This document shows, one piece after another, positions 16,306 through 39,988 of a stretch of 64,000 nucleotides of DNA. The stretch lies in NCBI RefSeq assembly GCF_030766825.1, contig NZ_JASFDV010000002.1, forward strand, positions 62,001-126,000, written 5' to 3'. The notes under the pieces were generated by a model that was given only the letters and a program-made list of their open reading frames with translations, was not told the DNA's origin and searched no databases. The position numbers and the translations under genes were made by a program. How positions within the stretch are numbered: the first letter of the stretch is position 1; every line of letters begins with the position of its first letter. This DNA is from Nocardiopsis sp. CC223A (GTDB lineage: Bacteria > Actinomycetota > Actinomycetes > Streptosporangiales > Streptosporangiaceae).

Positions 16306-16530
16306 GTGACGTTGCTGTGGACCGCCGGGCGGGTCTCCACCTGGCTCGGGGTCACCGTTCAGGGCGACCCCGCACCCCCCGGCTTCCCCACCGGGGCACT
16401 GACCGGCTGGCCGTTGGCCGCCTTCTACGCTGCCCACCTCCTGCTCGGGGGTTCTCTCCTGGGAGCGGTGACCGTCGCCTACCGGCGGCGGCGCTCCGCC
16501 AACGGCCATGTGTCCGGGCCGGGGCACTGA
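16306..16530 (+). CDS. Possible small membrane protein
   Basis: A 74-residue frame from GTG 16306 with two hydrophobic stretches (TLLWTAGRVSTWLGVTV and LAAFYAAHLLLGGSLLGAV) and a basic C terminus RRRRSANGH. The pattern looks like an actinomycete two-helix membrane peptide, but there is no clear ribosome binding site, and composition alone could produce it. Unknown function. Confidence 0.35.
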   Translation: MTLLWTAGRVSTWLGVTVQGDPAPPGFPTGALTGWPLAAFYAAHLLLGGSLLGAVTVAYRRRRSANGHVSGPGH

Positions 16531-16592
16531 CGACGTGCGGATCGACCGGACGGGCGACCACCGCTGAGCGACCCGGACCCCGGGCCGGGGCA

Positions 16593-16778
16593 GCACCAAG
16601 GGCGGGGACTCCGAGCGATCGGAGTCCCCGCCCCTTTTTGTGTCTCGGTGTCCTGACCACGGCTCGACCACAGAGGCTCGGGGAACCTGCTGGAAGATGA
16701 CGCGTCATGAAACACGAAAGGCGCCCCGAAGGACGCCGTCTCGCCTGGTCAGCGGAGTGATTCCGCTGGCCCGTCTTG
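16593..16778. mobile_element. Remnant resembling the int-side flank of an AICE
   Basis: This stretch, just outside attL, matches the sequence between int and the tRNA at 39,703-39,914 in order: the same 15-bp terminator hairpin, then ccacagaggctcggggaacc against ccacagaagctcggtgaacg, then gatgacgcgtc against gatgacgtgtc, and cgcctggtcagc against tgcctggtcagc. Its position and order suggest the right end of an earlier, otherwise deleted element in the same tRNA site. Similarity is read by eye; no integrase coding remains. Confidence 0.6.
16600..16639 (+). terminator. Rho-independent terminator
   Basis: A perfect 15-bp stem, GGGCGGGGACTCCGA at 16600-16614 against its complement at 16619-16633, a 4-base loop and a run of five T. 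It is the counterpart of the hairpin downstream of int at 39,714-39,754. Confidence 0.85.
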
Positions 16779-16826
16779 TGTGCCCCCTGCAGGATTCGAA
16801 CCTGCGCACACGGCTCCGGAGGCCGT
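16779..16826. repeat. attL, left 48-bp attachment repeat
   Basis: Identical over 48 bases to 39,915-39,962. It contains the T-arm, variable region and anticodon stem-loop part of tRNA-Arg; the rest of the tRNA is absent here, so this copy is the displaced chromosomal 3' end. Confidence 0.93.
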
Positions 16827-17081
16827 AGAGCTGAATCGCGCTGACCTGCCCGAACACCGCCGCAGGCGCCCCCTCTGTCCACCACCCGACCAGAGGCCGC
16901 CCACATAGCTCCCTCGAAGGCCCGCTTTCCGGCGGAGCGCTCACCCCTCCATGGCTAGCCAGTGGGGGGTGGGCGCCTGCTGTACTTCACCTTCTTAGAG
17001 AGTAAGAAGAACCAGCCTCCGCAGCCTCCGCAATGCCGCCACCGGTACCGCTCACCTGCCCAAACACTGCGGAGGCTGAGC
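16809..17081. repeat. Attachment-arm copy A
   Basis: This stretch and 17,381-17,617 are diverged copies of each other: both run from the tRNA-like ggaggccgt, through ctgaatcg.gctgacct, accgccgcaggcgc, tccaccacc.gaccagag, ctcgaag..c and a gtaagaag box, to aaacactgcggagg. This is more than chance and indicates tandem duplication of the att arm. Confidence 0.75.
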
Positions 17082-17130
17082 GCGCTCCTCAGCCTCCGCT
17101 AGCCTCCGCAGGCTCCGCTTCAGCCTCCGC
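17014..17130. repeat. AGCCTCCGC iteron cluster in the attL arm
   Basis: Five direct copies of AGCCTCCGC (17014, 17023, 17091, 17101, 17122) and one inverted copy (17069-17077) in 117 bases. Short iterated sites beside an att core are usually arm-type sites for integrase/excisionase or sites for a replication initiator. The same 9-mer recurs at the 3' end of the element's ATPase gene. Confidence 0.7.
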
Positions 17131-17204
17131 TGCCGTTTGCCTGAAGCAGCGGCTACCGGTTCAGTCCCCTCCTGAGTAGCCTTGGGAGGCATCGGTGGAC
17201 AGCA

Positions 17205-17288
17205 GCCGTCCGTATGGGGCGAATGTCCGTTTCTTGAGAAGTCATAAATTTGGCTGGTTTCCGGTGGAATCTTTGCAGGTCGTTGACT
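17205..17288 (+). promoter_or_regulatory. Putative CRISPR leader
   Basis: An AT-richer stretch (for example gtcataaatttggctggttt) directly before the first CRISPR repeat on its 5' side, the side where type I-E leaders lie. It is unique to the gap between the two att-arm copies. Promoter activity is inferred. Confidence 0.45.
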
Positions 17289-17377
17289 GTGCTCCCCGCG
17301 CACGCAGGGATGGCTGCTCGTTTGCACGAGCCATGATCCCCAAGGAAGCGTGCTCCCCGCGCACGCAGGGATGGCTG
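17289..17377 (+). CRISPR. Minimal type I-E-like CRISPR unit: two repeats, one spacer
   Basis: Two identical 28-bp repeats at 17289-17316 and 17350-17377 enclose a 33-bp spacer (17317-17349). The repeat begins GTGCTCCCCGCGCACGCAGG, close to actinobacterial I-E repeats, and folds as an imperfect stem with one mismatch. The 61-bp period is canonical for I-E. No cas gene is in the window, so processing would need a system elsewhere. Two repeats are the bare minimum, hence moderate confidence. Confidence 0.65.
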
Positions 17378-17380
17378 TGT

Positions 17381-17617
17381 CACGGTCTCGGAGGCCGTCA
17401 GGCTGAATCGTGCTGACCTTGCCTGAAAACCGCCGCAGGCGCTCCCCTCGTCCACCACCTGACCAGAGCCCGTCCGCAGAGCCCTCTCGAAGACCTGCTT
17501 CCCGGCGGTGCCCCCGTGGCTGCTGCTGCGCTCACCTTTCTGGAAGGTAAGAAGGATCGACCTCCGCTAACTCGATGCTGATACCGTTCACTTGTTCAAA
17601 CACTGCGGAGGTTGAGC
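17381..17617. repeat. Attachment-arm copy B with a decayed att-like core
   Basis: It starts with cacggtctcggaggccgt (17381-17398), which matches 15 of 18 bases of the anticodon-stem part of the att core at 16809-16826, and continues as the diverged copy of arm A. The upstream tRNA T-arm part is missing. The direct AGCCTCCGC iterons of arm A are reduced here to one degenerate pair. It looks like a dead or relic attachment site. Confidence 0.65.
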
Positions 17618-17748
17618 TCCTCTGTCGGCCTTCTTGTCAACCAGGATCGGATAATGACTACCGACTCACCTTTCCCTGGGGTATTCTTGAGATATATTGG
17701 TTGGGCAGGGAAATTTCTATCAAGATAATGCTTTTGGGGGCTGGATTA

Positions 17749-18768
17749 ATGTATTCGAATGGCAAGTTTTCTGATTTTGGAGATGGCTCCAATCGAGGAG
17801 TTGTGGAGGGGGTTGAGTTTGCTCCAAAGAGGATGAGAATTAAAGTTACCGAAGGGGATCTTGGGAAGATTGTCTACGGAAGCGACTCTCCGGGGCAGAA
17901 AATAACTGGAGTTTGCCGACTCTGCCAAGAGGAGAAGAGGTTGATGCTTAGTCACGTCGCTCCGAAGTGGTGCTACAAGTGGGCAAAATCCGAGGGACAT
18001 ATAGTTCACAAAATGACTTCTGAGAATTATTCGGCAAAGGCGGATGATGGCACCAAGCATTATCTCCTTTGCTATGAGTGCGAACAGCTGATGAGTCCCT
18101 GGGAGAAGTATGCTGCTGATCTTTCGAAGGGGGCTCCAAGGTATCTATCAAAAATAGGAGTGGTTCCGCATCCGGGTCCGACTCTCCATGGTGTGAGTCG
18201 AGAGAAGGTTACAAAATTTCTTCTGGGTGTTCTATTTAAGGGGCATTTTTCCGATTCTACCTGTTGGAGGAAAATAAGGCTAGACGAACTCTGGCTTGAG
18301 GAAATAAGGCTATACTTGCTGGGGAAATCCGAGTCGACTATGTATAAATTTGATATAGTCGCAACTCGGCATTACTCAAGATTGGCGGACGGGGTTAATC
18401 CGAGGGCGATCATGATTCCCAATCTGGGAACTGTTCGAGGTCTCTATTGCTACGAGCTGTTGATGGCGGGATGGGATTGGCAGTGTCTTTTTAGAACTTC
18501 TCCGAGGGTGAAGGCAAGGAAGGGGTGGAGTCCCATTCTCGCTGTCGATTCCGTTGATTCCTCAAGAGGTTTTGTTCTCAGGGATGGGGCTGGTTGGAAT
18601 ATTCGACAGGCTGATATTATGATAAATCATGTCATTAATCCAGAAATTTGGCATACTTTGGAGGATCCAGGGGGTGTGGTTGGAGATCTAGAAAAATGTC
18701 CTTGTGGTCTTGATGGGGCCAGTTTTAGTAAGTGCTGTAAGTATTCTTGGTATCGTCTCTATGTCTAA
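17749..18768 (+). CDS. AT-rich cargo protein with HNH-like and SEC-C-like zinc motifs
   Basis: Base composition is far lower in GC than everything around it, so it was acquired from a different source. From ATG 17749 the protein has 339 residues. A zinc-type module CRLC (C56, C59) ... SHVAPKW (H69) ... LLCYECEQ (C108, C111) resembles HNH-type nuclease-like proteins often found with defence genes. The last 23 residues contain CPCGLDGASFSKCC, matching the SEC-C pattern CxC-x9-CC. The frame is open from 17575, but that part overlaps arm B, which is non-coding in its other copy; ATG 17728 and 17833 are alternatives. Function unknown; a defence role is only a guess. Confidence 0.65.
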   Translation: MYSNGKFSDFGDGSNRGVVEGVEFAPKRMRIKVTEGDLGKIVYGSDSPGQKITGVCRLCQEEKRLMLSHVAPKWCYKWAKSEGHIVHKMTSENYSAKADDGTKHYLLCYECEQLMSPWEKYAADLSKGAPRYLSKIGVVPHPGPTLHGVSREKVTKFLLGVLFKGHFSDSTCWRKIRLDELWLEEIRLYLLGKSESTMYKFDIVATRHYSRLADGVNPRAIMIPNLGTVRGLYCYELLMAGWDWQCLFRTSPRVKARKGWSPILAVDSVDSSRGFVLRDGAGWNIRQADIMINHVINPEIWHTLEDPGGVVGDLEKCPCGLDGASFSKCCKYSWYRLYV

Positions 18769-19065: not shown

Positions 19066-19902
19066 TCACGCCTCCCAGGTCTTCCCGGTGAGCCTCTCAT
19101 ACACCTCGATATAGCGGGCGCGGGTGGCCTCGACGATCTCGTCCGGGATCTCCGGGCCCGGAGGGGTGCGGTCCCAGCCGGTGATAGTGCTGGACCAGTC
19201 TCGGACGAACTGCTTGTCGAAGGCGTGCTGCGGCCGCCCCGGCTGCCAGTCGTCGGCCGGCCAGAACCGGGACGAGTCCGAGGTGAGCACCTCATCGGCC
19301 AGCATCAGCGTGCCGTCGGTGGCCCGGCCGAACTCCAACTTGGTGTCCGCGATGATGATCCCGCGCTCGGCTGCGATCTCAGCCCCGCGCTTGTACACCT
19401 CCAGCGTGACCTCCCGCAGGTGGTCGGCGGTCTCCTGGCCGATCTCCTGAACGACGTCGTCGAAGGTGATGAACTCGTCGTGCCCCTCGGTCGCCTTGGT
19501 CGTCGGGGTAAAGATCGGCTCCGGGAGCTTGGACGCCTCAACGAGCCCCTCCGGCAGCCGGATGCCGGAGACGGTGCCTTGCTTCTCGTACTCCTTCAGC
19601 CCCAGCCCCGCCAGGTAGCCGCGGGCGATCCACTCCACAGGGAGCATGGTGAGCTTGCGGCAGCGCACCGCACGCCCCGTCCACTCCTCCGGGACGTCGG
19701 TGGCAGAGACGACGTGGTTGGGCACCACGTCCGCGAGCTGGTCGAACCACCACAGCGAGAGCTGGGTGAGGATCTTGCCCTTGTCCGGGACGGGGGTGGG
19801 CAGGACGACGTCGTAGACGCTCACCCGGTCGGAGGCGACCAGGATGAGGTCGTCGCCATCCGCGTAGACGTCGCGCACCTTGCCCGAGTGCACCAGTTCC
19901 AT
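19066..19902 (-). CDS. purC: Phosphoribosylaminoimidazole-succinocarboxamide (SAICAR) synthase
   Basis: Joins CAIR and aspartate with ATP in purine synthesis. All 278 residues are present with the family signatures: HSGKVRDVY near the start, SDRVSVYDVVLPTPVPDKG, LPVEWIARGYLAG, LPEPIFTPTTKATEGHDE, GIIIADTKLEFG and ADEVLTSDSSRFWP. Nothing looks damaged. It starts 8 bases after the stop of the GntR gene behind GGGAG, so the two are co-transcribed. A housekeeping purine gene inside a conjugative element is unusual. It may be a second copy or, less likely, the only one in the cell. Confidence 0.95.
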   Translation of the reverse strand: MELVHSGKVRDVYADGDDLILVASDRVSVYDVVLPTPVPDKGKILTQLSLWWFDQLADVVPNHVVSATDVPEEWTGRAVRCRKLTMLPVEWIARGYLAGLGLKEYEKQGTVSGIRLPEGLVEASKLPEPIFTPTTKATEGHDEFITFDDVVQEIGQETADHLREVTLEVYKRGAEIAAERGIIIADTKLEFGRATDGTLMLADEVLTSDSSRFWPADDWQPGRPQHAFDKQFVRDWSSTITGWDRTPPGPEIPDEIVEATRARYIEVYERLTGKTWEA

Positions 19903-19910
19903 TTCGCTCC

Positions 19911-20651
19911 CTACCTGGAGATCTCGTAGTTGTAGGTGGACCAGCGGCGGGCGATCGACACGGACTGCCCGAACTCGATCACCTCGCCGTCGGCGTCGTA
20001 CACCCAGTTCTGCTTGCGCAGCACGGGGGACCCCAGCGGGATGCGCAGGGCCTCGGAGTCCTCTTCCCCGGCGATGTCGGCGCGGACCTGGTCCTTGCCG
20101 GTCGCCGCGGTGAGGGAGGAGGTCTCCTCGATGTACTTCGGGGTGCCCTGGGGAAGCCGTTCGGCCACCAGGAGCAGGGGGGAGGTATCGGCCAGCTCGC
20201 CCTTGAACCAGGAGGTGCTGGCAGAGGAAGGGATGTCGTCTCGGAAGGTGACCCGGCGGCGTCGGATAGCCCGGGACCCCTTCGACACATTCAGGGCTTC
20301 GGCGATCTCGTCCGGGGCCTCGATCAGTTCGGCTACCTGGATCTCGGCGCGCTCGTTGGCCGGGTAGATCTTGCCGCCGATGCTTCTGGCAACACGGTCC
20401 TTGGGGCTGTCCTCCGAGTTCCCCAGGGACACGACGGTGCCTTTGCCGGGCTCGCCGCGCACCAGGCCTTCGGCTTTGAGAGCCCCCATGGCCTTGGTCG
20501 CCGTGGCCAGGGAGATGCGCCATTCGTTGGCGATCGTGCGAACCGAGTCGATGCGGTCCCCATCCCGGAGGGCTCCGGACTCGATCTTGGCGCGGATGTG
20601 CTTGACGACCTGCATGTACGGCGGGTCGGGGCGGTGAATCTCGGGGGACAC
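19911..20651 (-). CDS. GntR-family repressor (HutC/KorSA-like, UTRA domain)
   Basis: A 246-residue regulator: N-terminal GntR winged helix (VKHIRAKIESGALRDGDRI, then TIANEWRISLATATKAMGAL) and a C-terminal UTRA ligand domain. In pSAM2-like elements KorSA of this family represses pra and thereby replication and transfer. Here two perfect TGTACTAGTACA palindromes lie in the divergent region next to its GTG start, the obvious operators. AAGGAG precedes the GTG at 20651. Confidence 0.88.
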   Translation of the reverse strand: MSPEIHRPDPPYMQVVKHIRAKIESGALRDGDRIDSVRTIANEWRISLATATKAMGALKAEGLVRGEPGKGTVVSLGNSEDSPKDRVARSIGGKIYPANERAEIQVAELIEAPDEIAEALNVSKGSRAIRRRRVTFRDDIPSSASTSWFKGELADTSPLLLVAERLPQGTPKYIEETSSLTAATGKDQVRADIAGEEDSEALRIPLGSPVLRKQNWVYDADGEVIEFGQSVSIARRWSTYNYEISR

Positions 20652-25588: not shown

Positions 25589-27229
25589 ATGACCCACGAC
25601 ACCGACACCGACTCCGATGTGGAGATCCCCGAAGCCGAACCGCTCCCCGACATCGACGACGTCGAACGCGCCGCAGCCGACGCACCCTTCCCCACCCCCG
25701 CACCCGGTGAGGACGTCTCGCCTTCTGCTCACCAGGACGACACCTGGGGCGGGCGCCCGCCGCCGCTGCCGCCGGTGCTGGAACTGGCCGGGTCGAACCT
25801 GGCCACCGCCGGAGGCGCCGCCTACGGGGTGGCTGGCCCGGCCGGGCTGCTGGCGGTGGGTGCGGTGGCCACGGTCGGAGCGGTCGCCTACATGGCGCGT
25901 AACGCCCACCGCAACGCTGCCGAGCGGCGTGCCGGTGCGCCGGGCGTGCGCAACAGCCGTACTGGTCGCCTGCGAGGCCTGTTCGGGCCCGGAGGCGCCG
26001 GCCGGGCCGCTGGTGCCCGAACCGGTGGGTTCGCCGGGAAGGGCCGCCCCGGCTTCGGTACTCCGGGTGGGCGTCGGACCAGGGCCGGGATGGCTTCCGG
26101 AGGGCTGGGGCGCCGCGGCGATGCCGGGCTCGGTACTGGGGCCAGTGCCGGTCGGGGTTCTGCACTGCGGGGCTCCCGGGGTGGTGCGGGGCGCCTTGGG
26201 GCGTTCCGGGGCGGCTCTGGTTCTGTCGGGCTGGGGGCGCGCCCGGGTTCCTGGGGCCGTACCGGGTCCGGATTCTCGACTGGCCGCACGGGTTCCGGGG
26301 CTCTGGGGCGCGGCGTAGGCCGGATCGGTGGGCGCTCGCCCCGTTGGGGTGGCGCAGGCGGCGCTCGCGGCTTCGGGTCCCCGACCCGGGGTCGGTTCCG
26401 CACCACCGCGATCTCCGACCCCGCGATCCCGATGCGGGGTGGCCGCCGTCCTCTGCGGGGGGCGTGGGGCGCGTTCCGCCGCGGCTGGAACCACCCCCGC
26501 ATGCGCGGGGGCCGGGTCCGGGTACGCCGCGCGTCGGTGCGTACCCGCGACTACATGCGCAAACGCATCCGCCGTCTCAAGGTGTCCGCGTTCTGGCAGG
26601 CCCTGGCCGGATGGTGGGGGCGGCTGTGGTCCCGCATCCGCCGCGATGACCGCTACGGGCCGATGTGGTCCGCGTCCGCTGCCGCCTCCGCCTTGGCCGT
26701 GGCCGTACTGGGGCCCTCCCGCAAGGCCTCGCAGCCGCGGCGGGCCCTGACCGGACGGGTCATCGGCGCCTCTGCCCGCACTCCGGGCGAACTCACCGCC
26801 AAGGGGCGTCTGGCCATCGGCGCCGGAGAGGCCTCCGGCGCACCACTGGAAGGGAACGTCATGAAGAAGCCGAACGAGATCATCCGAGCCGAGGCCGCCG
26901 CCGACGAGTTGCGCGCCGCCCTGGCGGCGTTCGGTGGTGCCGACGTGCACATGCTCACCTACGAGGGCGGCCTGCAGGCGCTGCCCGACATGCTCCGCAC
27001 CATCGGCAAGGGCCTGCACGAGATGTCCTCCATCGCTGAGGGGGAGCAGCCGCTGCACCCGTCGGTGCTGCAGTACATGCACCAGATCAGCGCCGCCGTC
27101 CACCAGGTCGCCGCGGTCGCCGACGAACTGCCAGGGCTGTTCCGGGCCGCCCATGAGACCGAGCTGCAGCGTCTGGAGGCGCCGCGGGCCGGGGAACACC
27201 GCTGGGACGCCTCCCAGCGCGACGACTGA
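25589..27229 (+). CDS. Gly/Arg-rich Spd-like membrane protein
   Basis: A 546-residue protein with an acidic start, a hydrophobic pair of helices at about 75-105, a very Gly/Arg/Ser-rich disordered middle (about 110-300), a basic Arg patch and another hydrophobic segment near 370, and a helical C-terminal domain (about 430-530). The very basic middle could bind DNA. Its place directly before traB suggests a partner in intramycelial DNA spread. Start ATG 25589 has GAAAGGGGG upstream. Function is inferred from context. Confidence 0.65.
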   Translation: MTHDTDTDSDVEIPEAEPLPDIDDVERAAADAPFPTPAPGEDVSPSAHQDDTWGGRPPPLPPVLELAGSNLATAGGAAYGVAGPAGLLAVGAVATVGAVAYMARNAHRNAAERRAGAPGVRNSRTGRLRGLFGPGGAGRAAGARTGGFAGKGRPGFGTPGGRRTRAGMASGGLGRRGDAGLGTGASAGRGSALRGSRGGAGRLGAFRGGSGSVGLGARPGSWGRTGSGFSTGRTGSGALGRGVGRIGGRSPRWGGAGGARGFGSPTRGRFRTTAISDPAIPMRGGRRPLRGAWGAFRRGWNHPRMRGGRVRVRRASVRTRDYMRKRIRRLKVSAFWQALAGWWGRLWSRIRRDDRYGPMWSASAAASALAVAVLGPSRKASQPRRALTGRVIGASARTPGELTAKGRLAIGAGEASGAPLEGNVMKKPNEIIRAEAAADELRAALAAFGGADVHMLTYEGGLQALPDMLRTIGKGLHEMSSIAEGEQPLHPSVLQYMHQISAAVHQVAAVADELPGLFRAAHETELQRLEAPRAGEHRWDASQRDD

Positions 27230-27311
27230 CACCCGCCACACCGCGCTGCAGGGCCGCGCACCTCTGACCGGGGTCGCGGCCCCGTTGCTCTCCCAGGAAG
27301 GAGCACATCCC

Positions 27312-29483
27312 GTGTCGATCAGCACACCGTCGTCCCGCAAGTCCAAGAAGAAGACGAAGCGCGACCGAGAAGAACTCGCCCACCGGTGGTCACACCGCCA
27401 AGGCCCGTTCCTGGCCGCCGCCAATGCCGCCTCCCTGTCGCTGGCCGCGGCCACCGTCGGATCGCTGCCGGAAGTCGGCCTGCCCTGGTGGGGCCCGGCC
27501 GCCGTCGGCGCGATCGGCGCCACCGCCTCCTACACCCGCGCCGCCACCGCCCACCTGCCGCTGCTGTCCAAGCTGTACAAGCCGGGCCGGTGGGCCGCCT
27601 TCACCGGGTGGACCTCGCTCGCGCTGGCCACCGGCGGCCCCTGGTCCGCGGACATGCTGGCCGCCCTGGGAATCGGCGCGGTGGGCTCAGCCCTATTGCG
27701 GCCTGCCACCACAGCCTGGGAGATCGCAGCCCAGGACCGCAAGAGCGCCGAAGCCGAACAGAAGGAGCGCCTGTCCAAGGCGGTTGAGTGGGAGCGGCGC
27801 ATCGACCGGGTGTGCCGGATCACCGACACCGTGGTCACCGACATCCGCGACTGGGACTACCCCGACCCGCGCGACCCCTCCCAGACCTGGAAGACCGGCT
27901 ACACCGTCAAGGGCAAGCTGCCCCCGGCCGCCGGGTTGGACGTGCTGGAACGCAACACCCGCCGCCTGGCCGACGACGCCGACCTGCCCTCCGGGTGCGG
28001 TGTCGAAGTCGCCGGCCTTCCGGAGTCCCGGCGCACCTTCGAGCTGTTCATCTCCACTGTGGACGCCTTGGCCGAAACCCTGCCCTACCCGCAGGACTAC
28101 TCCCGCCGATCCATCTACGACGGCATCCCCAACGGCGTCTACCGCGATGGCTCCGAGGTCGCCCTGGACTTGAAGTGGGCGACCGCGCTGCTCATCGGCG
28201 CCACCGGCTCGGGCAAGTCCTCCCAACTGGCCGCGATCATGGCCTCCCTGCTGCGCTGCGACGACGTCATCATCTGGGGCATCGACCCCAACGGCGGCGG
28301 CGTCTTCGAGCCCTACCTGCGGCCCTGGGTCGAAGGCAAGGTCACCCGGCCCGCCATCGACTGGGTGGCGACCGGTCCCAAGGAGATGCACCGCATGCTC
28401 GACTTCGCCCTGGCCGCCATTGAGGCCCGCAAGATCGGCTACGCCGACCTGATGCGGGCCGCGAATGACACCAAGGTCCCGGTGAGCAGCGCGGTACCGC
28501 ACATCGAGATCGTCACCGACGAGACCGCGTCCCTGCCCACCGAGATCAAGGACAAGCTGACCGACCTGTCGGACCGCTCGCGGGCGGCGTCCATCCGGGC
28601 GCTGATCTGCTCCCTGCGGGCGGTCTCCGACGCGGTCCCCAAGTCGCTGATCTCCCAGGCCAAGGTGCGTCTGGGGCTGCGGGTCAACGACGAGACCGAG
28701 CTTAACCACCTGTTCGGGTGGAAGGGCAAGCTCCCGTCCGCCTCGGAGATGCCCGCCGAAGGGTACGGGCTGGTACGCCACGACGCCGCCGAGAACCCCC
28801 GCCTGTTCCGGGGCCTGTACGCCGATCCCGCCAAGGGCTCGGAGGTCGCCGAGGCCACCGCCGAATGGCGACCCGAACTCGATGACGTCACGGTGCGGGT
28901 CAACCCGGGCCTGTACATGGACCGGTGGGATAGGGCCCGCAAGATCGGGTGGCTCCCGGGTCTGGGGGAGGCACCCAAGCGGCGCCCCGCCACCCCATCG
29001 GCCCCGGCCCCGGAGGCCGCCGGTTCTTCGGAGGCAGAGGAGCCGAAGGCCGCCGGGCCGCTGGGGGACATGATCCAAGGTCTGGGGGACGCCATCCGCC
29101 GAACCCGTAAGGAGATGGAGCAGCAGAACCGCCCCGGCAGCGGCGGCCCCGGATCGGTCGATGAGACCTTCCGGGCGCTCACCGACGGCCTGTCCCTGGG
29201 AGACGGCGACCAGCTCCCGCTCCTGCTGCACACCGCGCTGCAGCTCTCGGAAGGAACCAAGGGCGTGGCGGTGGTCGACCTGGCCACCGAGATGAAGTGG
29301 TCCCGGCCCACCGTCCGGGCCCGGATGTCCGCGCTGGAGATCGACGAAGAGCCCAAGCCGGTGCGGTGGCGGTCGGGCGACAAGCCCGAGCGCGGCTACA
29401 CGCGCGAGGCCCTGGAGGTCGCCCGCGACCGCGTCCTCACCGGGGACCTGAGGGTCCCTCCCGGCATCGACACCGACGAGTAA
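27312..29483 (+). CDS. traB: TraB/TraSA-type FtsK/SpoIIIE DNA translocase
   Basis: The conjugation motor of the element: a hexameric ATPase that moves double-stranded DNA between mycelia. The 723-residue protein has N-terminal hydrophobic segments (about 33-75 and 95-128), a Walker A GATGSGKSS at 296-304, a Walker B-like HIEIVTDE at 397-404, and a C-terminal winged helix (VVDLATEMKWSRPTVRARMS) like the FtsK gamma domain that reads DNA repeats. GTG 27312 is chosen for GAAGGAG upstream; the frame is open further left but that part overlaps the previous gene. A dense GTAAC repeat cluster begins at its stop codon. Confidence 0.9.
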   Translation: MSISTPSSRKSKKKTKRDREELAHRWSHRQGPFLAAANAASLSLAAATVGSLPEVGLPWWGPAAVGAIGATASYTRAATAHLPLLSKLYKPGRWAAFTGWTSLALATGGPWSADMLAALGIGAVGSALLRPATTAWEIAAQDRKSAEAEQKERLSKAVEWERRIDRVCRITDTVVTDIRDWDYPDPRDPSQTWKTGYTVKGKLPPAAGLDVLERNTRRLADDADLPSGCGVEVAGLPESRRTFELFISTVDALAETLPYPQDYSRRSIYDGIPNGVYRDGSEVALDLKWATALLIGATGSGKSSQLAAIMASLLRCDDVIIWGIDPNGGGVFEPYLRPWVEGKVTRPAIDWVATGPKEMHRMLDFALAAIEARKIGYADLMRAANDTKVPVSSAVPHIEIVTDETASLPTEIKDKLTDLSDRSRAASIRALICSLRAVSDAVPKSLISQAKVRLGLRVNDETELNHLFGWKGKLPSASEMPAEGYGLVRHDAAENPRLFRGLYADPAKGSEVAEATAEWRPELDDVTVRVNPGLYMDRWDRARKIGWLPGLGEAPKRRPATPSAPAPEAAGSSEAEEPKAAGPLGDMIQGLGDAIRRTRKEMEQQNRPGSGGPGSVDETFRALTDGLSLGDGDQLPLLLHTALQLSEGTKGVAVVDLATEMKWSRPTVRARMSALEIDEEPKPVRWRSGDKPERGYTREALEVARDRVLTGDLRVPPGIDTDE

Positions 29484-30721: not shown

Positions 30722-31873
30722 ATGCGGATCACCGCTACCGCCGGGGTACTGGCCGAACAGCTCACCTGGGCCGCCAAGATGCTCCCGGCCCGCCCCGCGA
30801 TCCCGATCCTGGCCGGGATTCGGCTGGACATCGCCCCCGACCAGGTGCGCATCACCGCCACCGACTACGAGGTCTGGGGCACCGCCGCACTGGAAGCCGA
30901 CACCACCGACACCGGAACCGTGATCCTGCCCGGGCGGCTGCTGGCCGACCTGGTCTCCCGACTGCCCGCCTCCCGCACCCTCACCCTCACCACGGAGGAA
31001 GCCCGCGTGCGCATCGCCTGCGGGCCGGTGTCGGCGACCGTGCGCACCTTCCCCACCGACGACTACCCCGACCCGCCCGAGCGGCCCGCCACCGAGCTGG
31101 GCACCATGGCCGCCGCCGACCTGGCCGACGCCGTGGACCGCACCAGCGTGGCCGTCTCCAACGACGCCACACTGCCGATGCTGGCCGGGCTGCACCTGGA
31201 GTTCGGGCCTACCGGGCTGGTCGTGGAAGGCACCGACCGGTACCGCATCGGCCACCGCACTGTGCCCTGGTCACCGACCCTGCCCGACCCCTCCGAGCCG
31301 GCCGGGGACAGGCCGGTGACGGCGCTCATCCCCAGCACCGCACTGGCGCTGGCCGCCAAGTCGATGACCGGCATCCTCACCCTGTCCGCGGACCTGGACA
31401 CCGAGGCCACCGCCACCGTTCTGGCCGTGGCCGACCAGGCCCGGTTCCTGGTGATGCGCCCCCTGGATGCCGCGTGGGTCAAGACCGCACCCTTTCACGA
31501 CAAGGCCCTGAACGAGGCCGCCGTGCAAGTGGTGGCCGACACCGGCGAGCTACTCGATGCCATCGACCGCGCCCGCCTGTTCGCCGACACCGCCCCCGTC
31601 CACCTCACCACCGGCCCCGACCAGGTCACCGTGCACGGTGGGGCCGACGGCGAGGACGCCAGCGAAGACCTGTCCGCCGCCGTCACCGCCCTTGATGACG
31701 GCGAGCCCAAGGTGACGGTGGCGTTCAGCCACCGCTACCTCACCGACGCGCTGCGGGCCTGCCGCGCCGACACCGTCCGCCTGCTCCTGCGGCGCACCCC
31801 GGTCCCGGCCCTGCTGGTCCCCGAAACCGACGACGCCACCTACTGGCACGTCGTCATGCCCGTCCGCCAGTGA
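30722..31873 (+). CDS. DNA polymerase III beta (sliding clamp)-like protein
   Basis: A 383-residue DnaN-family protein with three clamp domains: start MRITATAGVLAEQLTWAAKM, then RPAIPILAGIRLDI (domain 1), the middle LPMLAGLHLEFGPTGLVVEGTDRYRI (domain 2), and a C-terminal TYWHVVMPVRQ, close to the canonical clamp ending. As a ring it would tether a polymerase to DNA. Carried with a PrimPol, it suggests the element builds part of its own replication machinery. AAGAAGGAGG precedes the ATG. Its stop overlaps the next open frame. Confidence 0.88.
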   Translation: MRITATAGVLAEQLTWAAKMLPARPAIPILAGIRLDIAPDQVRITATDYEVWGTAALEADTTDTGTVILPGRLLADLVSRLPASRTLTLTTEEARVRIACGPVSATVRTFPTDDYPDPPERPATELGTMAAADLADAVDRTSVAVSNDATLPMLAGLHLEFGPTGLVVEGTDRYRIGHRTVPWSPTLPDPSEPAGDRPVTALIPSTALALAAKSMTGILTLSADLDTEATATVLAVADQARFLVMRPLDAAWVKTAPFHDKALNEAAVQVVADTGELLDAIDRARLFADTAPVHLTTGPDQVTVHGGADGEDASEDLSAAVTALDDGEPKVTVAFSHRYLTDALRACRADTVRLLLRRTPVPALLVPETDDATYWHVVMPVRQ

Positions 31874-31893
31874 CCCCCGGCAAGGAGAAACCG

Positions 31894-34305
31894 TTGACCC
31901 TCACCGTGACCGACTTCTTCTGCGGCGCCGGCGGATCCTCCTCCGGCGCCGTTCAGGTTCCCGGGGTGAGCGTGCGCCTGGCCGCCAACCACTGGCGGCT
32001 GGCCGTGGACACCCACAACACCAACCACCCCAGCGTCGACCACGACTGCTTCGTTGCCGGAACCCTCATCCTGACCGCCGCTGGTATGCGACCCATCGAG
32101 GAGATCCGTCCCGGAGAGCTGGTGCTCACCCACAAGGGTCGATGGCGCCCGGTGGTCCGCAAGTTCGAGAAGCAGGACAGAACAGTGATCGCCAAGGCTG
32201 CACTCCACGCAGCGGGCACCGAGGTGACACCGAACCACGAGTTCTGGACGCGGCGCACCACGCTTCGCAGTGCAGGAAACGACTACGCCCGCGAATACGG
32301 AACCCCCAGGTGGGCCCCAATCGGCGACGCGCACGTCGATCGAGTCCGCCGAGCCGGGCATCACCGCGACATGCTCGCTTTCCCGGTTGCCTTTGGAGAA
32401 CTCCCATGGTTGGAGGCTCCCGAGAAGCTGGGAGCAGACCCAGTAGCAGCGTGGTGGCTCATCGGCCGATGGCTTGGGGACGGGTCGTCGGGTAACCACA
32501 ACGGCGACGTCACGATCTGCTGTGGCCGTCACGAGACTGAAGAGCTTCGGCGGAAGATTCCCCCTCGCTGGCGTGGGCGAGAGACCAACACCGCGTATGT
32601 CTTCTACGACTACAACCGGAAACTGGCGGACTGGTTGCGTGAGCACTTCGGATCGGGAGCTGCGGGCAAAGGCATCCCCGGGTGGGCACTCACCATGCCG
32701 GAAAGTTACCGCCGGGCACTCCTGGCCGGGTACGTGTCAGCTGACGGTTCTCAGCGCGAGGGGGTCACCCGCACCTCCACCATTTCCAAAAGCTTGGCGT
32801 TGAGTGTCCGAATGCTGGCTCACTCCTTGGGCTACAAGGCTTCCCTGCACTACATCGACCGCGGCCCATCCTGCGTCATCCAGGGGCGCACCGTCACCCG
32901 CCAGCCAGTCTGGTCGGTGCACTGGAGAGAACAGCCGACCAGGCAAAACACGATGACCGATGAGCTGCACTGCTGGGCCTACGTCCAAGAGATCAGCCCT
33001 GGCCAAGAAGACGTTCCCGTCTACACCATGGAGGTGGCCGAAGACCACAGCTACGTTGCTGATGGCCTGGTCGTGAAGAACTGCGCGGACCTGTCCCAGG
33101 TCGACCCCCGCCGCTACCCGACCACCGACATCGCGTGGCTGTCACCGTCGTGCACCAACCACTCCATCGCCAAGGGCATCGCCCGCCGACTCCAACAGCC
33201 GGACCTGTTCGACGAGACCGCCGCAACCGAGGCCGCCGAACGCTCCCGGGCCACCATGTGGGACGCGATCCGGTTCGCCGAACACCACCGCTACCGGGCG
33301 CTCATCGTCGAGAACGTCGTCGACGTGTGCTCCTGGGTGCTCTGGCCCGCCTGGTGCACCGCCCTGCTGGCCCTGGGCTACGAGCACCGGGTGGTCTCGC
33401 TCAACTCCATGCACGCCGCAGCGCTGGGGCCCGCGGCCCCGCAGTCCCGCGACCGGGTGTACGTGGTGGCCTGGCGGTCCGGAGACCGCGCCCCGGACCT
33501 GGACAAGTGGATCCGCCCCACCGCCACCTGCCCCACCCACGGCCCGATCCGGGCCGTGCAGTCCTGGAAGGGCAAACGGCAGGTCGGCAAGTACCGCAGC
33601 CAGTACCTGTGGCGGTGCCCGCGCATCGAGTGCCGCCACCGCCCGGTCGAACCCGCGGTGCGGGCCGCGGCCGAGATCGTCGACTGGTCCCTGCCCGCCG
33701 AACGCATCGGCGACCGCGCCCGGCCGCTGGCCGCCAAGACCATGGCTCGCATCCGCGACGGGCTGGCCGCCTACGGGCGGCCGCTGTTGGTCCCGGTGGA
33801 AGGCCGTCAGGGGAAGAAGGCCGCCCCGGCCTGCGGGCCGCTGCGCACCCTCACGACCTGCAACGAGACCGGCCTCGCGGTGCCCCCGTTCGTTGCGGAG
33901 CTGCGGGGCGGCGGGTCCAAGCACCGGCCCCTCACCAGTCCGTTGTCCACGGTGTGTGCCTCCGGCAACCACCACGGATTGACCATCCCGGACCTGATCG
34001 CCCCCTACTACGGCACCGCCTCCCCGCGCCCCGCCGACCAGCCGCTGCCGACGGTCACCACGGTGGAACGCCACGGCCTGCTGCCCGGCGGCACCGTGGC
34101 CTCGGTCGAGGAACTGCGGTTCCGGATGCTCACCCCCGGCGAGTACGCCGCGGCCATGAGCTTCCCCGACGGCTACGTGCTGCTGGGTAACAAGCGCGAG
34201 CGGGTGCGCATGACCGGCAACGCCGTCACCCCGCCTGCGGCCCGTGACCTGGTGGCCGCCGTGGCCGAAGCCCTGGCCGGCGAAGAGATCACCCCCGCCG
34301 CCTGA
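31894..34305 (+). CDS. C5-cytosine DNA methyltransferase interrupted by an intein
   Basis: Methylates cytosine C5. The 803-residue precursor holds motif I DFFCGAGGSS near the start, a catalytic SPSCTNHS (motif IV), LIVENVVDV (motif VI), QSRDRVYVVAW (motif VIII) and GNAVTPPAARDLV (motif X). The host part is about 458 residues after splicing. I prefer TTG 31894, since AAGGAG lies at 31882-31887; GTG 31870, overlapping the clamp stop, would add eight residues. No restriction enzyme gene is adjacent, so it is an orphan and may shield the element from host restriction. Confidence 0.88.
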   Translation: MTLTVTDFFCGAGGSSSGAVQVPGVSVRLAANHWRLAVDTHNTNHPSVDHDCFVAGTLILTAAGMRPIEEIRPGELVLTHKGRWRPVVRKFEKQDRTVIAKAALHAAGTEVTPNHEFWTRRTTLRSAGNDYAREYGTPRWAPIGDAHVDRVRRAGHHRDMLAFPVAFGELPWLEAPEKLGADPVAAWWLIGRWLGDGSSGNHNGDVTICCGRHETEELRRKIPPRWRGRETNTAYVFYDYNRKLADWLREHFGSGAAGKGIPGWALTMPESYRRALLAGYVSADGSQREGVTRTSTISKSLALSVRMLAHSLGYKASLHYIDRGPSCVIQGRTVTRQPVWSVHWREQPTRQNTMTDELHCWAYVQEISPGQEDVPVYTMEVAEDHSYVADGLVVKNCADLSQVDPRRYPTTDIAWLSPSCTNHSIAKGIARRLQQPDLFDETAATEAAERSRATMWDAIRFAEHHRYRALIVENVVDVCSWVLWPAWCTALLALGYEHRVVSLNSMHAAALGPAAPQSRDRVYVVAWRSGDRAPDLDKWIRPTATCPTHGPIRAVQSWKGKRQVGKYRSQYLWRCPRIECRHRPVEPAVRAAAEIVDWSLPAERIGDRARPLAAKTMARIRDGLAAYGRPLLVPVEGRQGKKAAPACGPLRTLTTCNETGLAVPPFVAELRGGGSKHRPLTSPLSTVCASGNHHGLTIPDLIAPYYGTASPRPADQPLPTVTTVERHGLLPGGTVASVEELRFRMLTPGEYAAAMSFPDGYVLLGNKRERVRMTGNAVTPPAARDLVAAVAEALAGEEITPAA
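32047..33081 (+). other. In-frame LAGLIDADG-type intein (345 residues)
   Basis: Starts with C1 in CFVAGTLILTAAGMRPIEEI (splice block A), has the block B TPNH, two endonuclease motifs WLIGRWLGDGSS and LLAGYVSADGSQ (DOD/LAGLIDADG pair), and block F VPVYTMEVAEDHSYVADGL. It ends in KN before the +1 Cys of the extein; the usual penultimate His is Lys. The insertion lies between methyltransferase motifs I and IV. The homing endonuclease seems intact. Confidence 0.9.
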
Positions 34306-35101: not shown

Positions 35102-36088
35102 ATGAACGCCTTCAAGCCCATCGACTACGCCCTGGCCGCCGCCCGCCGCGGCTGGCCGGTCTTCCCCCTCACCCCGAACAGCAAGAAACCCCCGCTGGTC
35201 AAGGACTGGGAACGCGCGGCCACCACCGACCCGGCCCGCATCCACGCCTGGTGGCGGCAGTGGCCCGCGGCGAACTACGGCATCGCCACCGGCCCCGCGG
35301 GCCTGGTCGTGATCGACCTCGACACCCCCAAGCCCGGACAGGCCCCGCCCGCGACGTGGGCGCTGCCCGGGGTGGTCGACGGTGCCGATGTGCTGGCGGT
35401 GCGGGCCGAACAGGCCGGGGAACCGCTGCCGCTGGACACCTTCACCGTCCGCACTCGCCGGGGCGGCACCCACCTGTACTTCACCCACCCCCACGACGGG
35501 CCGAAGCTGGGCAACACCAGCGGCGACCAGGGCGCCGGGCTCGGATGGCTGATCGACACCCGCGCCCACGGCGGCTACGTCGTCGGCCCCGGGTGCCCCG
35601 TCACCGCACCCGACGGCAACGGCACCTACGAAGTCACCCACCGCGAAGATCCCGCACCGCTGCCCTGGTGGATTCATAGGCGCCTGCTCCGCAGGCCCGA
35701 CTCCCAGGAGAAGCCGACCACCAGCTCCCGCCCCACCCCGGGGCTCGCAACCGGTGGCCTGTCGGCGATCCTCACCGACGACCGGCGCCGTGCCGCCTAC
35801 GTGCGGGCCGCGGTCAAGGGGGAGCTAGCCAGGGTTCGGGACGCCGCTCCCGGGACGCGCAACGAGAACCTCTACATCGCCGCCGCCTCGCTCGGTCAGC
35901 TGGCCCGCGAAGGCCTGCTCGATGCCGACTGGGTCGCCGACGCGCTGCGCAACGCCGCCCTGGATGCCAACACCGCAGGTGACCCAAATCCGGTGCGGGA
36001 GATCGAGGCCACCATCCGCTCCGGACTCGCCAAAGGCCTCCGGGAGCCCCGCCGCACCACCCCACGCCCAGGAAGGACGGCCGCGTAG
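35102..36088 (+). CDS. Bifunctional primase-polymerase (PrimPol)
   Basis: A 328-residue archaeo-eukaryotic-type PrimPol. The N-terminal domain has the metal-binding VIDLDTP (D72, D74), the later GGTHLYF (H124) and the usual opening YALAAARRGWPVFPLTPNSK with the DWERAATTDPARI stretch. It primes and extends DNA; together with the following ATPase it replaces RepSA in AICEs of this class. The ATG of the next gene follows the stop directly, so they are one unit. Confidence 0.88.
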   Translation: MNAFKPIDYALAAARRGWPVFPLTPNSKKPPLVKDWERAATTDPARIHAWWRQWPAANYGIATGPAGLVVIDLDTPKPGQAPPATWALPGVVDGADVLAVRAEQAGEPLPLDTFTVRTRRGGTHLYFTHPHDGPKLGNTSGDQGAGLGWLIDTRAHGGYVVGPGCPVTAPDGNGTYEVTHREDPAPLPWWIHRRLLRRPDSQEKPTTSSRPTPGLATGGLSAILTDDRRRAAYVRAAVKGELARVRDAAPGTRNENLYIAAASLGQLAREGLLDADWVADALRNAALDANTAGDPNPVREIEATIRSGLAKGLREPRRTTPRPGRTAA

Positions 36089-37837
36089 ATGAGCGGGAAC
36101 AGCGACGAGAAGAAGCCCTCCCAGGCCACCCTGCTGATCGAGATGGCCGACCGGCACGTCAACGTGGTGGCCGGCCCCGGCGGCAAGGCCTACGCCGTTC
36201 GGCGGGGCGGACCCCAGATCGCGTTCCCGCTGCTGCGCAAGGACGGCCTGCGGGTCCAACTCGCCCGCCAGTACTACGACGAGCACCATTCCGTTCCCTC
36301 GCAGTCGGCCCTCACCGACGCCATCGCGGTGTTGGAGGGCCGGGCGGTGGACCAGGAACCGCAGAAGATCAACCTGCGGCTGACCACCCACCGCACCGAA
36401 GCGGGTGCCCAGGTCGTCATCGACCTGGGCACCCCCGACGGGCGGTGCGTGGTCGTCGGCTCCGACGGATGGCAGGTCCGCGAACGGAGCCCGGTGCTGT
36501 TCCGGCGCACCAAGCTGACCAGCCCCATGTCCGACCCCGGCCCGGCCGGGCACACCGACCAGGGCCTGGCCGCCCTGCGAGGGCTACTCAACGTCGACGA
36601 GAGCGCGTTCCGGCTCATAGTCGGATGGCTGGTCTCCGGGCTGCTCCCGGACATCCCGCACCCGATCCTGGCCGGGAAGGGCGAACAGGGCACCGGCAAG
36701 TCCACCGCACTGGAGATGCTGGTCAACCTGGTCGACCCCTCACCAGCCGCGCTACGGTCCCTGCCCAAGGACATCAAGACGTGGGCGACCGTCGCCACGG
36801 CGAGTTGGGCGGTGTGCCTGGACAACGTCTCAGCCATCCCCATGTGGCTGTCGGACACCCTGTGCAAGGCCGTCACCGGCGACAGCCTGGTCGACCGGGC
36901 CCTGTACAGCGACGACGACGTGTCCGTGCTGTCCTTTCAGCGGCTGCTCGCGCTGACCAGTATCGACACCGGAGCCCTGGCCTCGGACCTGTCCGAGCGG
37001 ATGCTCGCCGTGGAGTTCCTGCCCATCAAGCGCAGCGAGCGCCGACCCGTCGCCGAGATCAAGGCGGCCTTCGACCAGTCAGCGCCCGCCATCCGGGCCG
37101 CGCTGTTCGACCTGCTGTGCCAGGTGCTGGCCACCCTGCCCGACATCCGTCTGGCCGAATCGCCGCGCATGGCCGACTTCGCGCACGTCCTCGGAGCCCT
37201 GGACAGAGTCATGGGCTGGGAGACCCTGGCCACCTACCTGGCCGCTTCCCAGGTCACCACCGCCGACCTGCTCGATGCCAAGCCGTTCACGTCCGCGGTG
37301 GCCGACTTCGTCGACCAGCACGGCACCTGGACCGGATCGGTCAGCCAGCTCTTGGACCTGGTGGCCGTCCCCGATCCGCGGCCCCGCTCCTGGCCGGTGG
37401 ACGCCACCCGTGCCTCCGGCCAGCTCAAGCGGGACGCCCCGGTGCTGCGGTCCATCGGCATCACCGTGACCGAGGCCGGGCGCTCCGCCGACCGGCAGCG
37501 CCGTCAGCTCTACGCCTTCACCGCCCACCGCATCGCCGAGGCCGCCCCGGCGGGAGCTGCGGAGGCTGGTGCGGAGTCTGCCGGAGGCTCAGCCTCCGCA
37601 CCAGCATCCGCACATTCGGCCAGTTCAGAACAGGTGATGGAGGCTGCGGACCCTGCGGAGGCTGGGTTCCCCCAACTCTCTGAAAACCCTCAGGAGCCTG
37701 TGGAGACCGGCCCCTGCATCCGCTGCAGCGCCGCCTTCCGCCGGTTCGAGGCCACCACCCACCCCAAGGTGTGCACCTCCTGCGCCCATCACGCGAGGCG
37801 CACCTACGAACCCGCTCACGAAGCGGCCCCGGCCTGA
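36089..37837 (+). CDS. Replication ATPase/helicase of the AICE PrimPol module
   Basis: A 582-residue P-loop ATPase. Walker A is GEQGTGKST at 198-206, Walker B is AVCLDN around D245, and the RALYSDDDVSVLSFQR and DLSERMLAVEFLP stretches fit the viral-type helicases paired with PrimPols. The C terminus has an Ala/Glu/Ser linker and a zinc finger CIRCS...CTSC. The linker codes for several exact GCGGAGGCT/AGCCTCCGC motifs, the same 9-mer as in the attL arm, so an origin-like site may lie inside the gene. Confidence 0.78.
   Translation: MSGNSDEKKPSQATLLIEMADRHVNVVAGPGGKAYAVRRGGPQIAFPLLRKDGLRVQLARQYYDEHHSVPSQSALTDAIAVLEGRAVDQEPQKINLRLTTHRTEAGAQVVIDLGTPDGRCVVVGSDGWQVRERSPVLFRRTKLTSPMSDPGPAGHTDQGLAALRGLLNVDESAFRLIVGWLVSGLLPDIPHPILAGKGEQGTGKSTALEMLVNLVDPSPAALRSLPKDIKTWATVATASWAVCLDNVSAIPMWLSDTLCKAVTGDSLVDRALYSDDDVSVLSFQRLLALTSIDTGALASDLSERMLAVEFLPIKRSERRPVAEIKAAFDQSAPAIRAALFDLLCQVLATLPDIRLAESPRMADFAHVLGALDRVMGWETLATYLAASQVTTADLLDAKPFTSAVADFVDQHGTWTGSVSQLLDLVAVPDPRPRSWPVDATRASGQLKRDAPVLRSIGITVTEAGRSADRQRRQLYAFTAHRIAEAAPAGAAEAGAESAGGSASAPASAHSASSEQVMEAADPAEAGFPQLSENPQEPVETGPCIRCSAAFRRFEATTHPKVCTSCAHHARRTYEPAHEAAPA
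37559..37663. repeat. GCGGAGGCT repeats inside the ATPase gene
   Basis: Exact copies at 37559-37567 and 37655-37663 and an inverted copy AGCCTCCGC at 37591-37599, plus several one-mismatch copies. GGAGGCT-C-AGCCTCC at 37583-37597 is a perfect hairpin. Possible initiator or integrase sites, or a side effect of an Ala/Glu-rich linker. Confidence 0.55.
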
Positions 37838-38082: not shown

Positions 38083-38285
38083 GCACCGGAACGCGCACCG
38101 ACCGGCCCAACTCCTTCCTCACCGTGCGGGAGGTCTGCGAGGAACTCCGCATCTCCCGCAGCACCTGGGACCGCATGGTCCGCCTTGGACAGGTCCCCAA
38201 GATGAAGCGGATGGGCGGTCGCCGCGGCGAGATCCGCATCCGCCGGAGCTGGCTCGACGCCTGGCTGGAAGAGGGCGGCGCCTGA
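38079..38285 (+). CDS. xis: Excisionase (MerR-type winged helix)
   Basis: A 68-residue DNA-binding protein. The helix-turn-helix LTVREVCEELRISRSTWDRM and the following wing with basic residues MKRMGGRRGEIRI are typical AICE/phage excisionase. It guides integrase to excision at attL/attR. Its stop base is shared with the int start, so the pair is translated together. Confidence 0.88.
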   Translation: MSTGTRTDRPNSFLTVREVCEELRISRSTWDRMVRLGQVPKMKRMGGRRGEIRIRRSWLDAWLEEGGA

Positions 38286-39685: not shown

Positions 39686-39713
39686 CCCGGATCACATGCT
39701 GATGAAGCGCCAA

Positions 39714-39754
39714 GGGCGGGGGCTCCGAGTGCTTTCGGAGCCCCCGCCCTTTTT
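39714..39754 (+). terminator. Terminator downstream of int
   Basis: Perfect 15-bp stem GGGCGGGGGCTCCGA (39714-39728) / 39735-39749 and TTTTT. Near-identical in sequence to the hairpin outside attL at 16600-16639. Confidence 0.88.
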
Positions 39755-39914
39755 GTCGTTTATGCCCGGTCCACCGGTGGTCCACAGGCGGTCCACGAGT
39801 GGTCCACAGAAGCTCGGTGAACGTGCTGCACGATGACGTGTCCTGACATACGAAGAGACGCCGCCCACCAGGTGTCTTGCCTGGTCAGCGCGGCGTCTGT
39901 CGTGGTCGGTGTTC
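39755..39914. other. Int-side attachment arm
   Basis: No gene. It has GGTCCAC repeated four times (around 39769, 39779, 39790 and 39801), probably arm sites for integrase, and is the part that resembles 16,640-16,778. Confidence 0.55.
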
Positions 39915-39962
39915 TGTGCCCCCTGCAGGATTCGAACCTGCGCACACGGCTCCGGAGGCCGT
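39915..39962. repeat. attR, right 48-bp attachment repeat
   Basis: Identical to attL. It covers the 3' half of the tRNA-Arg gene, which stays intact because the element brought its own copy of this half. Confidence 0.93.
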
Positions 39963-39988
39963 TGCTCTATCCCCTGAGCTAAGGGGGC
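39917..39988 (-). tRNA. tRNA-Arg (anticodon CCG)
   Basis: Read on the minus strand, GCCCCCT pairs with AGGGGGC as acceptor stem, the D-arm is GCTC..GAGC, the anticodon arm is ACGGC-CTCCGGA-GCCGT with anticodon CCG, and the T-arm has GGTTCGAATCC. The CCA end is not encoded. CGG is a major arginine codon in such high-GC genomes. Confidence 0.95.

Follow-up and report, generated by a model that had tools for sequence, protein, structure and literature searches.

What a one-spacer CRISPR unit without cas genes is doing at the end of a mobile element is the question raised by a short stretch of the genome of Nocardiopsis sp. CC223A. An earlier note, written from the sequence alone, had described this stretch as a type I-E-like unit in the att region of a conjugative element. 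It supposed that the unit might borrow the host Cascade to exclude rival elements or phages from the same tRNA site, or that it was a fragment captured at recombination. We analysed the unit within a window of 64,000 nucleotides (positions 62001-126000 of contig C2 in a 6.89-Mb draft genome of 194 contigs) and compared it with the rest of the genome and with related genomes. Published systems are cited from extracts of the papers given by accession. The reading that we favor, with a probability of roughly 0.57, is that the unit is a cas-less type I-E mini-array carried as cargo by an AICE in a Nocardiopsis tRNA-Arg, where it lies behind a block of sequence at the att end of the element, and that it is used via the machinery of the host.

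A leader-bearing type I-E unit

The earlier note had read two identical 28-bp repeats around a 33-bp spacer with a 61-bp period, and this arrangement was confirmed (Table 1). Both features are those of type I-E arrays, in which repeats measure 28-29 nt and recur about every 61 nt. When the 28-mer was searched for at up to three mismatches, neither the window nor the whole draft genome held a place beyond the two repeats. As 100 shuffles yielded no match at all, a tandem repeat arisen by chance was ruled out. A dispersed repeat unrelated to CRISPR, an objection that the note had raised against itself, was ruled out as well, because the 28-mer is confined to two places in the genome and stands in a type I-E context. 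Cognate type I-E repeats, whose absence the note had named as its other possible objection, are abundant in both the genome and the genus.

Table 1. Features of the CRISPR unit and of the element that carries it, in window coordinates
Feature	Positions	Strand	Remarks
Remnant: integrase tail and terminator of an earlier element	16529-16778	+	16529-16826 is 73% identical to 39647-39962
att copy, left end	16779-16826		direct repeat, identical over 48 bp to 39915-39962
Conserved element-end block with repeated GCCTCCGC motifs	16942-17138	+	profile matches at 10 loci; presumed cis-acting role
Type I-E leader, family A of the genus	17227-17288	+	scores 50/62 against a consensus drawn from 38 other leaders
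CRISPR repeat 1, 28 nt	17289-17316	+	24/28 to the common genus repeat
Spacer, 33 nt, first base C	17317-17349	+	lies between two perfect repeats
CRISPR repeat 2	17350-17377	+	identical to repeat 1
Truncated second copy of the att-proximal element end, without the tRNA 3′ end	17381-17511	+	82.6% identical to 16809-16938
GntR-UTRA regulator fused to SAICAR synthetase, beyond the cargo slot	19066-20523	-	PF01259; anchor for related loci
FtsK/SpoIIIE-type transfer protein (TraB-like)	26934-29483	+	PF01580, 29.2 bits, cut-off 24
Prim-Pol replication protein of the AICE	35102-36088	+	PF09250, 148.1 bits
Tyrosine integrase of the AICE	38285-39685	+	PF00589, 27.2 bits, cut-off 27.1
att copy, right end	39915-39962		48-bp direct repeat, within tRNA-Arg
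tRNA-Arg (CCG), integration target	39916-39988	-	same tRNA and conserved flanks in the near-empty site L198

The repeat agrees with the common repeat of the genus at 24 of 28 bases and shares the core common to the type I-E repeats of the host. Both copies carry the same four departures, A18 and a CTG at positions 26-28. A18 by itself is not unique, being present in one repeat of a host array (L041), and the final CTG differs from the consensus of every other array compared. Across 40 genomes of the genus (own included), the 25-base core of the repeat has no other place at up to one mismatch and a single one at two mismatches. Because the four departures were not found together elsewhere, one repeat of the window appears to have been copied from the other after the departures had arisen. 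To judge from the sequence, this copying was probably a spacer acquisition in place, with a local duplication as the alternative; the basis for insertion in place is that both repeats share a combination of departures absent from the other arrays searched. A short gapped alignment also pairs the tail of the repeat, CTGTGTCACGG, with CTGCGCACACGG in the att region. This alignment is suggestive of an att origin of the deviating CTG tail, in which case fusion of the last repeat to an att copy may have preceded the uptake of the spacer. Such an order of events would mean that adaptation continued at a time when the array already belonged to the element.

The variant repeat is predicted to fold at -10.2 kcal/mol with an interrupted stem (z -0.40), compared with -14.3 kcal/mol for the common repeat. 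The deviating tail falls on what we take to be the 5′ handle of the crRNA; in the window, this handle would have CUG(C) at its end in place of UCC(C). Together, the weakened hairpin of the folding model and the altered handle suggest that the unit would work with reduced activity, in so far as its transcript is processed as predicted.

The AT-richer flank that the earlier note had taken for leader-like sequence proved to be a true leader. Among 38 other family-A leaders, 25 columns are conserved at ≥90%, and the window leader agrees with them in 24 (mean of the others, 24.3), a similarity that is biased upward, since most of the arrays in the comparison were chosen for their resemblance to this leader. 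The consensus was drawn up after removal of family-B arrays, of leaders that were short or contained N residues and then of 10 of 49 leaders, which were duplicates or scored below 38/62 to the consensus. No second place in the window reached 34/62 against this consensus. The best matches to single leaders (51/62) were to a host array (L035) and to two arrays of one relative (L176 and L178 of G033). A promoter scan of 16500-17700 found no sigma-70-like sequence, and a scan of 16500-18000 against Rfam returned five matches up to E 1, all of which were below their gathering scores. By Pfam, no Cas family was present in any of the 17 element frames retained by the filter, in agreement with the earlier note. 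The unit is a genuine type I-E CRISPR unit, made up of leader, repeat, one spacer and repeat, without cas genes.

The AICE in tRNA-Arg and its cargo slot

The perfect 48-bp att repeats bracket the unit together with the genes for the tyrosine integrase, Prim-Pol and the FtsK-type protein, so that the CRISPR unit falls inside the att-bounded element. In combination, these three proteins are hallmarks of AICEs. As described for this class, transfer involves a single FtsK-type protein (PMC3218068). By its gene content the element is an AICE integrated in tRNA-Arg, and it is predicted to be mobile. The earlier note had placed the unit in the att region of a conjugative element, and these features bear this out. 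Its description of the unit as abutting a relic att core holds for the truncated copy, which begins 3 bp past the second repeat, but not for the intact core, which stops some 460 bp short of the first repeat.

A near-empty version of the integration site was found in a related genome (L198 in G020), in which the chromosomal flanks are about 3 kb apart, as opposed to about 24 kb in the window. When six proteins of the L198 flanks were compared with those of the window, five were 94-97% identical and one was 90% identical. The remnant of an integrase tail to the left of the left att copy indicates that the site received more than one insertion.

Several other features of the window were recorded. 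Right behind the unit, an open frame at 17575-18768 with a low GC3 (0.46) and no Pfam match looks recently acquired. The element also has a DNA polymerase III beta clamp (30722-31873, three Pfam domains), with a distant counterpart in L210 (36%), and a C5 DNA methylase (31870-34305) whose Hint and LAGLIDADG domains probably mark an intein. The element-end block occurs once more, inverted, at 37554-37686, inside the frame 36089-37837 near the integrase. At 2306-2380, ARAGORN reported an odd tRNA with a four-base anticodon that is probably spurious.

The closest element found occupies the same tRNA-Arg in another genome (G030), where it is split over two contigs (C18 and C45). Its SAICAR/GntR protein is 91% identical to that of the window over 485 aa, its Prim-Pol is 87% identical and its integrase (L210) is 92% and 97% identical in two segments. 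Between the block and its own truncated att copy, this element carries a pentapeptide-repeat gene and not a CRISPR unit. That a different gene occupies this position marks the slot as a cargo site. The end of this element is represented by L080, in which the truncated att copy, similar to that of the window, lies at 466-366. Given the contig break in the G030 element, an array further in is possible. Since closely related elements have this slot either holding an array or lacking one, the question of whether such arrays work is testable.

Arrays behind the element-end block in related loci

The region 16770-17660 was searched in 60 genomes (own included) and, among the matches listed, nine other loci matched about 16941-17130. 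A block profile built from ten sequences (the window and these nine loci) found 14 separate copies in the compared loci, in a count that omits opposite-strand matches inside a copy and loci duplicating a place. In 6 of the 14 copies, representing 5 of the 10 loci, a leader follows 57-111 bp past the block end and is itself followed by a type I-E array. The window leader starts 88 bp past the block end, inside the range of the other five block-linked arrays. With ten to twenty arrays per genome, a figure counted for the host only, we roughly estimate that such an association at five of ten loci would be extremely unlikely by chance. The window array has 2 repeats, and the others have 15 and 6 (both in L079), 16 (L081), 27 (L082) and 6 (L087). 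Near the other eight block copies (L080, L083-L086 and three that are partial or weak), neither repeat nor leader scored above shuffled sequence within 700 bp.

Gene order around these arrays is partly conserved. The order block, array, SAICAR/GntR gene and g20756 is common to the window, L079 and L082, and L081 has the order block, array, GntR-UTRA and g20756. The N-terminal part of the fused SAICAR/GntR product of the window (485 aa, single frame) matches a separate GntR-UTRA gene of L079. Loci with the block only carry AICE-type genes in three of the five cases examined, namely Replic_Relax in L083 and L086, and FtsK, NUDIX and GntR-UTRA in L085; L080 is the end of the G030 element, and the two proteins scanned in L084 included no AICE-type gene. 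L079, from N. quinghaiensis, contains a duplication of the entire unit of block, leader and array (81.6% identity over 614 bp). This locus has att-like sequence. Only fragments of an integrase, in two parts, were matched there, and the sole Prim-Pol of the genome lies on another contig, so that L079 may be the remnant of an element. Among the five array-bearing block loci, att boundaries are established for the window element only; L082 has an integrase fragment. In L087, which ends soon after its array, the AICE proteins of the window were unmatched.

A contig search with the SAICAR protein gave a second view of these loci. Among its best 80 loci, seven were from Nocardiopsis, and type I-E arrays were present within flanks of up to 10 kb in three of these (L088, L090 and L093) and absent from four, two of the three being places already described (L088 is the same place as L079, and L090 the same as L082). 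The type I-E pattern detected an array in none of the 73 loci from outside Nocardiopsis. The block profile had no match in L093.

The longer arrays at the same kind of place in related genomes indicate that elements may borrow host immune machinery. A broader proposal would be that this slot of Nocardiopsis AICEs holds a leader-bearing cas-less array, which gains spacers in hosts that have Cas1-Cas2 and allows the host Cascade to fight rival elements; the array would then amount to a portable immune memory passed on by conjugation. We put this proposal forward tentatively and consider it, as stated, rather unlikely.

Host machinery, targets and competing explanations

A degenerate type I-E repeat pattern found 104 places in the genome (60 forward and 44 reverse), compared with 1 and 3 for the backward control. 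Around the places listed, the host holds at least 13 further type I-E arrays with 2-21 repeats each. Arrays fall into family A, with repeats of the form CTGCTCCCC...GGTCC or GGACC, and family B, with GTGAGCCCC or GTCAGCCCC...GGACC, and the leaders differ between the families. In the compared loci, 475 of 529 family-A spacers start with C, as does the spacer of the window, and 55 of 58 family-B spacers start with G. This split indicates that base 29 follows the array family.

The only cas7e match in the genome lies on contig C12 within an operon with the order cas3-cas8e-cse2-cas7-cas5-cas6e. Cas8e, Cse2, Cas7, Cas5 and Cas6e scored above their NCBIfam cut-offs, and Cas3 was above two domain cut-offs and below the full-length one. 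Searches of the draft genome with TIGR03638 and PF01867 did not find cas1, a gene that is above the TIGR03638 cut-off in 23 of the 40 genomes of the genus. With its complete effector operon, the host is probably capable of interference and, on the evidence of a draft genome, not of spacer acquisition; given that no cas1 was found, new spacers probably cannot be added in the present host. The operon occupies 4654-12501 of L047; it is a complete effector operon without cas1, in a genome whose two array families differ at the 29th base (C or G). The host Cascade that the earlier note imagined being borrowed is therefore present in the form of a cognate operon, and its use in trans is predicted.

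The order of the effector genes is the same as in Streptomycetaceae type I-E operons that are without cas1 and cas2 (PMC12231136). In those operons tnsB and tnsC replace the adaptation genes, whereas the operon of this host adjoins a gene with an isochorismatase-type hydrolase match that is below the cut-off.

The spacer gave no support to the proposed exclusion of rival elements or phages from the tRNA site. It had no match in phages, its matches in plasmids were at most 24 nt long and at chance level, and IMG/VR contained no exact match to the spacer 29-mer or to any of three spacer 20-mers. At up to three mismatches the spacer found only itself in the 40 genomes of the genus and in 297 genomes of the order (own included), and the compared related loci contained no target. 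Self-targeting is ruled out, as a search of the genome with up to three mismatches located the spacer only at its own position. A review puts the fraction of 2104 Streptomyces spacers without a phage or plasmid match at 99.5% (PMC12231136), which means that missing targets are usual in this group. Of the interpretation in the earlier note, the type I-E assignment, the element and the host operon were upheld and the exclusion of competitors at the tRNA was not.

We also considered whether elements of this kind are themselves targeted. The window element was rejected as a target of 587 unique array spacers, which by BLAST had no match with up to seven mismatches inside 16779-39962; two weak matches, with 6 and 7 mismatches, fell in the window outside the element. 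With 172 spacers, the compared loci yielded 6 partial matches that lay outside arrays and spanned at least 22 bases; with the 587 spacers, they yielded 6 matches with up to five mismatches, three of which had an AA flank. One family-B spacer of the host matches a Prim-Pol gene of N. ganjiahuensis with 4 mismatches and an AA flank, and a spacer of G020 matches a SAICAR-type locus of the same species (L091) with 3 mismatches and an AA flank. AAN is described as the effective motif in S. avermitilis (PMC12231136). These two weak matches, to loci placed in AICEs by gene type, suggest that AICEs may be type I-E targets in the genus. In G030, the first spacer of an array whose boundaries are uncertain (L183 14125) matches the same genome with 1 mismatch (L177 7698).

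According to our favored reading of the unit as AICE cargo, Cas1-Cas2 of an earlier host would have inserted the spacer in place and copied the repeat in doing so. Transcription from the leader would then provide a precursor that Cas6e and Cascade of the host would process in trans, and the one resulting crRNA would guide the Cas3 of the host against an element. The strongest competitor is a dead remnant, in which a longer working array would have collapsed to one degenerate unit that yields no usable crRNA and persists by chance. The single spacer would fit such a history, as would the last repeat running into a truncated att copy, the 6-27 repeats of the block-linked arrays elsewhere, a host without detected cas1, the weakened stem and the four positions at which both repeats deviate from the common one, three of them in the 5′ handle. 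However, the leader is intact at its conserved columns, and the identical repeats, which point to copying after the departures arose, would require either adaptation or a local duplication subsequent to the collapse. We regard a dead remnant as a real possibility with the odds against it.

The deviant repeat could also be thought of as an RNA decoy that resembles the Racr anti-CRISPRs, which like the window unit involve repeat-like RNA encoded by a mobile element (PMC10651486). Such an RNA would tie up Cas6e or Cas7 and shield the AICE from the type I-E immunity of the host. In favor of a decoy are the inhibition of a type I-E system by two type I-E Racr candidates (PMC10651486), the imperfect repeat and the matches of type I-E spacers of the genus to AICE-type genes; however, Racrs are solitary repeat units, unlike the combination of leader, two repeats and spacer found here, and in relatives the block-linked arrays contain as many as 27 repeats of the common type, which leaves a decoy very improbable. 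Least probable of all is a short fragment that recombination carried out of a chromosomal array to the att region without relation to the other block-linked arrays, because, although the leader is nearest to chromosomal arrays and reaches only 29-40/62 with the block-linked ones, so that exchange with host arrays instead of descent with the element is possible, its distance from the block end lies within the range of the other block-linked arrays, no donor array with this repeat variant was found in the host or in the 40 genomes of the genus, and the fact that block, leader and array are found together again at related loci makes a fragment captured at recombination, as offered by the earlier note, less likely.

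Cas-less arrays are known from viruses and plasmids, and what distinguishes the present one is that it is AICE cargo. Like the mini-CRISPR arrays of the archaeal viruses SPV1 and SPV2, the unit sits on a mobile carrier, has a leader and no more than two spacers, lacks cas genes and has repeats of the host type (PMC6858448). It differs from them in that its carrier is an AICE and not a virus, its repeat agrees with that of the host at 24/28 bases instead of being identical and its relatives include long block-linked arrays of up to 27 repeats. Virus-borne mini-arrays of this type, with a leader and without cas genes, are described as taking part in virus-virus conflicts (PMC6858448; reviewed in PMC11656645). 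Like the orphan arrays of plasmids, including SCP1 of Streptomyces coelicolor, the unit is on a mobile element without cas genes (PMC9071438, PMC12231136), and the use of host Cas proteins in trans has been proposed for plasmid orphan arrays (PMC9071438). Unlike these, it is in an integrative element, behind an element-end block, and has one spacer. CRISPR is likewise carried by an integrative conjugative element of Campylobacter (PMC8743540), but that element has its own Cas9 system, which targets plasmids, whereas no Cas family was found in the window element by Pfam. If it is functional, the unit would by analogy work like the cas-less arrays of viruses, plasmids and phages.

In the part of the literature examined, no report of arrays as recurrent AICE cargo was found. 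CRISPRs of Salinispora are described as concentrated in genomic islands (PMC4223832), and in the extract of a 2011 survey of AICEs, CRISPR is mentioned only for a T4SS-type ICE (PMC3218068). Should the arrays prove functional, AICEs would pass ready-made immune memory from one actinomycete to another, and they could use this memory to exclude rivals competing for the same host.

Similar sequences also occur on other mobile carriers. When 17160-17420 served as a permissive query (E up to 10), 95 plasmid records were matched, Streptomyces accounting for 79 of them, and the best listed plasmid matches cover the end of the leader, the repeats and the spacer, as expected for plasmid arrays. Among phages, Streptomyces phage ZL12 has a three-repeat type I-E-like array (L213 2936-3073), and Saccharomonospora phage PIS 136 has two four-repeat type I-E-like arrays with flanks that are alike (L214 2996-3206 and 5836-6046).
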